From Ilumatobacter sp. (lineage in GTDB: Bacteria; Actinomycetota; Acidimicrobiia; Acidimicrobiales; Ilumatobacteraceae), in NCBI GenBank assembly GCA_013002175.1, contig JABDKP010000182.1:1-47302 (forward strand): DNA of 47,302 bases, written 5' to 3'. Under the pieces are notes generated by a model. It was not told the origin of the DNA. It worked only from the letters and a program-made list of their open reading frames with translations, and made no database searches. The position numbers and the translations under genes are program-made. Shown here piece after piece: positions 3,231 through 6,099 of this stretch (position 1 is its first letter; each line of letters starts with the position of its first letter).

Positions 3231-3310
3231 CGATCGTCGCGTCGCCACGAGCGGCGCCGGCGTCGTCTGCTAACTTCGCCGCGAGTTGAGCGAGGTTTCA
3301 GGGGGAATAC

Positions 3311-5566
3311 ATGAAAACGACGGCGGCGATCGTGAGCTCACTGCTGATGCTTTCGGTTCTGGTGGTGGCCGGGCCGGCGACTGCATCTCACGATGACGCG
3401 GCGTGCACGGACGTCACATTGGTGTTTGCGCGGGGATCGGGTCAGACGCTCAATTTCCGTGAGGCGCCCCGCTTCTTCGAGAAAGTCACGAACCGACTCG
3501 ACGGCATCGGCGTGAACGCGTACGAGTTGGGGGCCGAGGCGCACGACGGTGCGCAGTACCCGGCCTACGGGATTGGCTTCGACAGCCTTCAGTCGTTCAA
3601 GAACCTCATCGAGGCCGACGCCAGCTGGACCGGCCCCGCCGGCGGGGAGTATCGCTCCAGCGTGACCTCCGGGGTGACCGAACTCACCGCATACCTCACT
3701 GCGAGGGCGGCGAGGTGCCCCGACGAGATCTTCGCGATCGGCGGATACTCGCAGGGCGCCCAGGTCGTGGGCGACGCGCTTCCGAATCTGTCGGCGTCGA
3801 CACGCGACCGGATCGCGTACGTTGCACTGTTCGGCGACCCGAAGCTCTATCTGCCGGAGGGCCGGGGGCCGTTCCCGCCGGCCTGCATCGGCAAGCAGTT
3901 CTCCGAATGGCGTCGGGGAAATGTCAGTTGCTTCACGGACAACGGGATACTCGAGGCTCGAAAGCCGTATCTCCCGTCCGATGTGGAGTCACGCTCCGGG
4001 TCCTGGTGTGACCGAAATGATCCGATCTGCAACAACAATCCGGCGGACTTCGTGGTGTCGGCACACAGCTTCTATGCGGACGATGGCGCGGAGATGGACG
4101 AGGCCGCGCGTGAAGTGGCGATCGCCATCGCCGATCGGCTGCCTCCTGAGCAGGCGGAGACAATCGACATATCGATCTTCGTGCTCGCAGCAGGCGCGAA
4201 CGGTATCGATGTCGCATTCGTCATCGATACGACCGGTTCGATGTCCGGACAGATCGGGGCGGCGACGTCCGTCGCCGATCTCGTCGGCACGAACATCATC
4301 AATCTGCGGGGGCGTGTCGCGCTCACCGAGTATCGCGATGCCTTCGACTCGTTCGTCGCCGAGGTGAGGACACCGCTGACGACCGATGTCGGGTTGTTCC
4401 GGTCGTCCCTTGACGACCTCTTCGCGAGCGGTGGGGGCGATTCGCCGGAAGCACTGCTGACCGCGCTGATGACCACCTTCGACGCACTGGACTGGACTCC
4501 CGGTGCGACAAAGGCGGCGGTCGTGCTGACCGACGCCGGGTATCACGACCCTGACGTCGCCAATGGGTGGACCGCCGCCGACGTGGTGCAGCGCAGCCTG
4601 GAGATCGACCCCGTCAACGTCTACCCGGTCGTGCCCGCCTACCTCGAGTCGACCTATCAACCGCTCGCCGACGCGACCGCCGGTCAGGTGATCATCGACT
4701 CCGGCGACACGGCTGCGGCGCTCGTCGAAGCCTTCGAGGCGGTCTCGACCCGTCCCGTGGTCGTGCTGCCGTTCGACCAATACTTCGCCGCACCGGGCGA
4801 CGAGGTGGTCTTCGAGGTCTTCGCCTACGACATCGACGCCGACATCGTCGGCTACGAATGGGATTTCGATGCCGACGGCGTCATCGACCTCGCGACCGAG
4901 GGGCCCACCGCCACCCACGTGTACGCCACGCCGTTCTCGGGGATCTTCGAAGTGCGTGCGACCTCGGCCGACGGTGGCATCGGGAGCGCGGCAGGCACCA
5001 TCGAGGTCAGCGAGTCCGGCCTCGCAGATCGACTGCCCGGACCGGCCACCGGACTCGCCGCGGAACTCGTCGACGAAGCGAACCGAAGCTTCCGGGTCAG
5101 CTGGGACGCCGTGACCGATCCGGATGTGGACGGGTGGGCGCTTCTGAACGGCGACGGCGACCTGCTCGCCCGGCTGGCTCCTGAGATCACCGAGATCGTC
5201 ATCCCCGGCGTGCCCGACGAGGGTGGGACGGTGTCCCTGGTCGCGTTCAACGAATTCGGTTCGAGCGATGTGCGCTCGGTCGAGTTGCCATCCGCGCTCG
5301 GCGATCCGTTGAGCGCGTTGCAGCGCTTGCGAGACGACGTCGCGGGCGCTGGCCTGGCCCGCGGGCTCGAACGCTCGCTGCTGGCGAAGGTCGAGGCCGC
5401 GATCCGTTCGGTCGAGCACGACCGCATGAACCCGGCGTGCGGACAAGTCGGTGCCCTCGCGAACCAACTCGGGTCGTCGGCCGCACGGGATGGCATCGAC
5501 AGCGCCACGCTCGCCGATTGGAGTGCGCGGGCAAACTCGATCCGCGAGCTGCTGGACTGTGGCTGA
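3311..5566 (+). CDS. Secreted cutinase-vWA-PKD multidomain protein
   Basis: A 751-residue exported protein with an AGGGGG ribosome site. Residues 1-26 are a signal peptide. Residues about 30-275 are a cutinase-type alpha/beta hydrolase: LVFARGSGQ, the nucleophile motif GYSQG (Ser147) and late Asp and His (WCDRNDPIC, SAHSFY), so esterase activity is expected. Residues about 298-475 are a von Willebrand A domain with FVIDTTGSMSG as metal-ion motif. Next come a PKD-like domain (about 485-565, YEWDFDADG), an FN3-like domain and a C-terminal helical segment resembling a FIMAH domain (ending LLDCG). The hydrolase is probably tethered or assembled extracellularly through the vWA part. Exact domain limits are estimates. 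Confidence 0.85.
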   Translation: MKTTAAIVSSLLMLSVLVVAGPATASHDDAACTDVTLVFARGSGQTLNFREAPRFFEKVTNRLDGIGVNAYELGAEAHDGAQYPAYGIGFDSLQSFKNLIEADASWTGPAGGEYRSSVTSGVTELTAYLTARAARCPDEIFAIGGYSQGAQVVGDALPNLSASTRDRIAYVALFGDPKLYLPEGRGPFPPACIGKQFSEWRRGNVSCFTDNGILEARKPYLPSDVESRSGSWCDRNDPICNNNPADFVVSAHSFYADDGAEMDEAAREVAIAIADRLPPEQAETIDISIFVLAAGANGIDVAFVIDTTGSMSGQIGAATSVADLVGTNIINLRGRVALTEYRDAFDSFVAEVRTPLTTDVGLFRSSLDDLFASGGGDSPEALLTALMTTFDALDWTPGATKAAVVLTDAGYHDPDVANGWTAADVVQRSLEIDPVNVYPVVPAYLESTYQPLADATAGQVIIDSGDTAAALVEAFEAVSTRPVVVLPFDQYFAAPGDEVVFEVFAYDIDADIVGYEWDFDADGVIDLATEGPTATHVYATPFSGIFEVRATSADGGIGSAAGTIEVSESGLADRLPGPATGLAAELVDEANRSFRVSWDAVTDPDVDGWALLNGDGDLLARLAPEITEIVIPGVPDEGGTVSLVAFNEFGSSDVRSVELPSALGDPLSALQRLRDDVAGAGLARGLERSLLAKVEAAIRSVEHDRMNPACGQVGALANQLGSSAARDGIDSATLADWSARANSIRELLDCG

Positions 5567-5712: not shown

Positions 5713-5997
5713 TCAGCGGGTGGAGCGGCTGGGTGGTCCGTCGAGGCGGTGCATCTCTTCGGCGATCTCGGTCTCGGAGATCGGCTTCTGACCGAAGACG
5801 TTCCAGGCGTGCAGGACCACGCCGATGCCCCATCCCGCGATCGGCCAGATCGGCCAGAAGTAGCCGACACCGGATGCCGCCCAGATGACCACGAGCAGGG
5901 CGTTGACAGCGAAGTACAACAGAGCGTGGGTTCTGAAGTCGCGCTTGTCGGTGATGCGGGCGATGGCGGCACTTCTACGTGTGTCGTGCTGATCCAT
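5713..5997 (-). CDS. Small 2TM-domain membrane protein
   Basis: A 94-residue protein beginning MDQHDTRRSAAIARITDKRDFRTHALLYFAVN, with an ATG start and a strong GAGGAGG ribosome site. Two hydrophobic helices (about 25-45 and 48-66) separated by a short WPIWP turn match the 2TM domain family. In other bacteria this domain also occurs attached to histidine kinases or as a solo protein. The C-terminus is a short cytoplasmic helix. Function unknown. Confidence 0.8.
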   Translation of the reverse strand: MDQHDTRRSAAIARITDKRDFRTHALLYFAVNALLVVIWAASGVGYFWPIWPIAGWGIGVVLHAWNVFGQKPISETEIAEEMHRLDGPPSRSTR

Positions 5998-6099
5998 CCT
6001 GAAACCTCCTCAGGTGGGGTGCGTCAGCAACCATCGTCGTCCGGACGACCCGTGGTGGGGAGAGGACAACGTCACGATCCGATGATCACGCCAAGGTCT

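Follow-up and report, generated by a model that had tools for sequence, protein, structure and literature searches.

A predicted cutinase–vWA–PKD esterase of an Ilumatobacter species and its relatives in Saccharibacteria

The closest described counterparts of the protein considered here are the cutinases of Pfam family PF01083, of which the Fusarium solani enzyme (1CUS) is an example, and the secreted single-domain cutinases of actinobacteria of the Culp type. The same fold is used by the phage enzyme LysB, which acts on mycolyl esters. For the non-catalytic part, the nearest analog is the I-domain plus hybrid domain of integrin beta. The cutinase fold and the vWA and PKD domains are each known; their union in a fused cutinase-vWA family was found neither in a paper nor in an NCBIfam model naming the fused protein. 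The literature search (cutinases in Saccharibacteria or Patescibacteria, or combined with vWA domains) had open-access scope, where absence is no proof.

The gene is located on a 47,302-nucleotide stretch of Ilumatobacter sp. DNA (positions 1 to 47,302 of contig JABDKP010000182.1, assembly GCA_013002175.1), hereafter called the window, and all features given below are on its + strand. A single uninterrupted open reading frame at 3311..5566, stop codon included, encodes 751 amino acids and is preceded by a strong ribosome binding site, AGGGGGAA (3300..3307), with the ATG following 3 nt further on. The protein starts with a signal peptide, MKTTAAIVSSLLMLSVLVVAGPATA (residues 1-25, 3311..3385), recognized by inspection and predicted as a helix (residues 3-19) in an AlphaFold model of the 751-residue chain that was built on eight sequences. 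A cutinase domain, a vWA domain, a PKD domain, an FN3-like sandwich seen in the model only and a helical tail follow in this order. The cutinase/vWA/PKD fusion described in the first-pass annotation is real, with one reading frame and all three Pfam scores above their cut-offs. Since the same domain order is present in independent genomes the fusion is no assembly artefact, and a chance fusion was ruled out by its recurrence in many genomes. A foreign DNA island was also rejected, as the GC content of the gene (66%) shows no marked shift from that of the whole window (69%).

The cutinase domain (residues 31-260, 3401..4090) was recognized by the Pfam profile PF01083 with 83.5 bits against a curated cut-off of 25.9 (E 2.1e-23). 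In an alignment, the catalytic residues Ser147 of the GYSQG motif (3749..3751), Asp237 (4019..4021) and His252 (4064..4066) were unchanged in every one of the 120 family ORFs and also in nine single-domain relatives; Cys233 and Cys240, on either side of the aspartate, were equally invariant. Loss of the catalytic His or Asp in a proper alignment had been named as grounds for doubt, and both residues were retained throughout; a dead enzyme was rejected because of the invariant triad, and the proposed intact esterase core is upheld as a prediction. All top 50 PDB matches of a model of residues 28-285 were cutinases or cutinase-like proteins (best E 3.9e-10), among them a cutinase to which degradation of biodegradable plastic is ascribed; model confidence was low around the catalytic Asp and His and in a lid-like insertion at residues 177-232 (3839..4006). 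With the F. solani enzyme the domain shares the alpha/beta hydrolase fold, the GYSQG nucleophile, the Asp between two cysteines and the His, at ca. 21% identity in a structural alignment. It differs from that family in its length (ca. 260 instead of ca. 200 amino acids), in its vWA-PKD fusion and in the lid-like insertion, which alignment showed to be family-specific and which holds two extra cysteines, Cys192 and Cys207, and an LPEG motif. Because classical cutinases differ in this part, the substrate cannot be read from them. The Culp-type enzymes share the secreted cutinase fold but are mostly 214-372 amino acid ORFs in which no vWA-PKD part was seen.

The vWA domain (residues 299-480, 4205..4750) matched Pfam VWA_4 at residues 301-461 with 41.7 bits against a cut-off of 27 (E 1.2e-10). 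All residues of the metal-ion site (MIDAS) are present, namely Asp306-x-Thr308-x-Ser310 in the motif DTTGS (4226..4240), Glu380 (codon at 4448) and Asp408 (codon at 4532). In an alignment of 104 rows, Asp306, Ser310, Glu380 and Asp408 were the modal residues in 91-97%, and position 308 was Thr or Ser in 96%. The metal binding ascribed earlier to this domain is thus well founded as a prediction, the MIDAS being complete and conserved. The PKD domain (residues 481-566, 4751..5008) was identified at residues 492-564 with 35.2 bits against a cut-off of 23.5 (E 1.3e-8). Both parts were modeled with confidence, and through them the whole-chain model matched integrin beta headpieces in a structure search. 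The likeness lies in the predicted vWA-PKD fold and in a D-x-P-E metal-site motif; it is an analogy only and implies no sequence membership, the Pfam Integrin_beta match being below cut-off (E 0.024).

The more distal domains proposed in the first-pass annotation fared less well than the cutinase, VWA and PKD assignments, which Pfam confirmed. FN3 gave no Pfam profile match in the window protein, and the FN3-like region (residues 577-660, 5039..5290) is based on seven beta strands at residues 580-658 that resemble an FN3-type sandwich in the AlphaFold model; a relative (L013) gave a sub-threshold fn3 match (E 0.03) at the same place. On the C-terminal tail (residues 664-751, 5300..5563), modeled as helices at 666-749, FIMAH (PF22888) scored 13.1 bits against a cut-off of 24.8 (E 0.14), so that only a FIMAH-like resemblance can be stated. 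A profile search of the rest of the genome gave no FIMAH match above cut-off.

The genome containing the window is a 3.3 Mb MAG with one cutinase. The rarity suggested earlier was borne out for actinobacteria: in samples of the family (201 genomes), the class (395) and the phylum (397) the full fusion was found nowhere outside the window's own genome, which rules out an architecture common across actinobacteria. The class sample contained cutinase-only ORFs of 355-391 amino acids (family f50) and, separately, vWA-PKD proteins lacking a cutinase, and some genomes of the phylum sample encoded 7-12 cutinases apiece, as mycobacteria do. Relatives with the full domain order included several Candidatus Saccharibacteria as well as two gut Bifidobacteriaceae MAGs and one MAG of Actinomycetaceae. 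One Bifidobacteriaceae locus (L015) ends prematurely within the PKD domain, and the same genome carries a second, full copy (L053).

Saccharibacteria are tiny parasites living on actinobacteria, and what the first-pass annotation missed is that the architecture is common among them. A cutinase was found in 138 of 393 Saccharimonadia genomes, about a third, nearly all of roughly 0.5-1.4 Mb. The other 255 gave no match, which indicates that the lifestyle does not depend on the enzyme. Among 112 ORFs fetched from Saccharimonadia a vWA domain was detected in 101 and not in the remaining 11, and PKD in 42; Pfam independently confirmed Cutinase plus VWA_4 in several. A spread over all Patescibacteria was not seen: only four of 136 genomes in a sample of that phylum matched, each of them also a match in the Saccharimonadia sample. 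Reading of neighboring sequences identified housekeeping genes in many Saccharibacteria loci (a dCMP deaminase-like protein, uracil-DNA glycosylase and a TypA-like GTPase), suggesting an old, stably inherited gene; no conserved partner gene was found next to the Saccharibacteria members.

This distribution bears on the possibility that the protein is a secreted polymer-degrading esterase acting on cutin, suberin or polyester, with the extra domains tethering it to particles and with plant cutin as the substrate in gut and sludge relatives. The cutinase fold, the plastic-degrading structural match and the origin of some relatives from gut metagenomes of plant eaters are consistent with such a role. 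We nevertheless regard it as unlikely, because the family is most widespread in small epibiont genomes, which are not those of polymer degraders, because no carbohydrate- or polymer-binding domain was found in the protein, and because the vWA domain is a module of the protein-ligand type. Nothing was found in support of the polymer surfaces that the first-pass annotation offered as a target, and the distribution agrees better with targets on other cells.

The history of the fusion was examined with two cutinase trees, a quick tree of 125 rows and a smaller careful tree rooted on classical cutinases, and with a quick vWA tree. In the careful tree the family forms one branch (99/97) that sets it apart from the Culp-type outgroup. 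The window cutinase groups with cutinase-only proteins from its own class (98/95); a weakly supported branch (85/78) unites the cutinases of Bifidobacteriaceae and Actinomycetaceae with those of Saccharibacteria. In the vWA tree a branch (86) separates all cutinase-fused vWAs from GDSL-fused and other vWAs. Between the window protein and its Bifidobacteriaceae and Actinomycetaceae relatives the vWA domains are 52-54% identical and the cutinase domains 38-42%. From the two domains' trees and the vWA identity, our reading is that a single fusion took place, was later reduced in the window's class, and was exchanged, in either direction, between actinobacteria and Saccharibacteria.

The better conservation of the vWA domain could also mean that the protein is mainly an adhesin, in which the esterase performs a maintenance or self-processing step such as an intramolecular ester or anchoring reaction. 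This seems very improbable to us, as the catalytic triad is invariant in all family ORFs whereas the vWA domain went undetected in some of those from Saccharimonadia. The replacement of the cutinase by another esterase likewise argues that the hydrolase matters. In Actinomycetaceae and other actinobacterial genomes a GDSL/SGNH esterase precedes the same vWA_4-PKD module (L036, L066 and L101, the last with a sorting-type C-terminal tail). These proteins resemble the cutinase fusions in the module that follows a secreted esterase but have an unrelated enzyme fold, and the branch mentioned above separates their vWAs from the cutinase-fused ones. The occurrence of two unrelated esterase folds on one vWA-PKD module suggests that the module carries an esterase to a surface, which is the best functional clue that we have. 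Two further proteins (L041 and L104), judged by eye, are also of the GDSL-vWA-PKD type.

The C-terminal ends of the family vary. Two relatives (L013 and L014) carry a sorting motif, a hydrophobic segment and a basic tail of the LPXTG type, and the Bifidobacteriaceae and Actinomycetaceae members and some deep Saccharibacteria combine a membrane segment and a basic tail, to which some add an LPXTG-like motif. A hydrophobicity scan of the window protein tail revealed no sorting motif, hydrophobic membrane segment or basic tail. Display outside the cell, as proposed earlier, is supported for relatives with such signals, but the window protein has no recognizable anchor and is probably released. 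In Saccharimonadia, 85 of the 112 ORFs terminate in P-x-[TSAC]-G (P-N-T-G and variants), mostly followed by 2-3 residues and without a membrane segment. In each of two contigs (400 kb and 330 kb) the cutinase-vWA gene was the sole carrier of this short tail (1 ORF of 371 and 1 of 287), and one of these contigs also encodes several ordinary motif-plus-membrane proteins. Stop-codon read-through into a membrane segment beyond the tail was not seen in the two loci L016 and L017. Sortases in vitro accept short C-terminal motifs of this sort; sortase presence was discarded as an explanation because it is uninformative, sortases being encoded in 58 of 59 genomes. It is conceivable, though we hold it to be decidedly unlikely, that the cutinase-vWA protein is the enzyme by which lipid-auxotrophic epibionts throughout Saccharibacteria take acyl chains from their actinobacterial hosts, that its membrane-less PNTG tail works in trans as a genuine sorting signal, perhaps at the host wall, and that the gene passed between epibionts and actinobacteria, a transfer that would explain the window copy. 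As side observations, L126 and L130 bear a sortase-like P-N-T-G-type short tail lacking a membrane segment, and in one Saccharibacteria member an in-frame TAG (L020:6702-6704) precedes the last part of the tail, marking a pseudogene or a sequence error.

We consider it probable (roughly 0.6) that the protein is a secreted cutinase-fold serine esterase, its activity predicted, which is directed to surfaces through a vWA-PKD(-FN3) module for metal-dependent adhesion and is mainly an epibiont tool. This assignment draws on the Pfam domains, the invariant triad, the cutinase fold, the conserved MIDAS and the integrin-like vWA-PKD fold, together with the spread in Saccharimonadia, the GDSL-vWA-PKD parallels and the sorting-type tails of the actinobacterial relatives. 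By binding a surface ligand, on a cell or a matrix, the vWA domain would keep the esterase in contact with lipids or acyl esters at that site, so that fatty acids may be freed or the envelope loosened. For Saccharibacteria the likely target would be the lipid or acylated envelope of the host cell. Such organisms lack membrane-lipid synthesis, and how they obtain lipids is open; they also alter host lipids, and the host forms lipid droplets (PMC10939385). In view of this missing pathway, the fused esterase is a candidate tool to attack or feed on other cells. Predicted to be active, present in about a third of the sampled Saccharimonadia and often lying amid the same housekeeping genes, it offers a concrete candidate for lipid acquisition. 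The 3.3 Mb genome of the window organism is not that of an epibiont and counts against the epibiont role there; the same chemistry likely takes place at cell or particle surfaces, where the probably released protein could help to scavenge lipids or esters, to prey or to compete. The window gene is then better read as a rare actinobacterial representative of a family dominated by epibionts than as a polymer-bound oddity of one actinobacterium.

Alternatively, the esterase may act on the host's acylated outer envelope, on mycolate or other acyl-glycan esters, and aid attachment or lysis by the epibiont, in the manner of the envelope esterases with a cutinase fold known from phages and mycobacteria. 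LysB is a precedent for this fold on mycolyl esters, but mycolates are absent from many hosts of Saccharibacteria, and envelope parasitism is not known from the window organism or from the family members in Bifidobacteriaceae and Actinomycetaceae. We find this explanation rather unlikely, even though mycolic acids matter in resistance to one sludge saccharibacterial parasite, as the title of Rose et al. (2025), cited in PMC12592800, states.

The comparison with a congener was fragmentary and covered the downstream side of the gene: a region encoding small proteins (window 5741-6075) matched a 9.8 kb contig (L268) on which no cutinase gene was apparent. Another multidomain arrangement, judged entirely by eye, was observed in a 1062-amino acid ORF (L199), in which a cutinase at residues 388-629 follows a propeller-like N-terminal region and precedes cell-wall-binding-like repeats.
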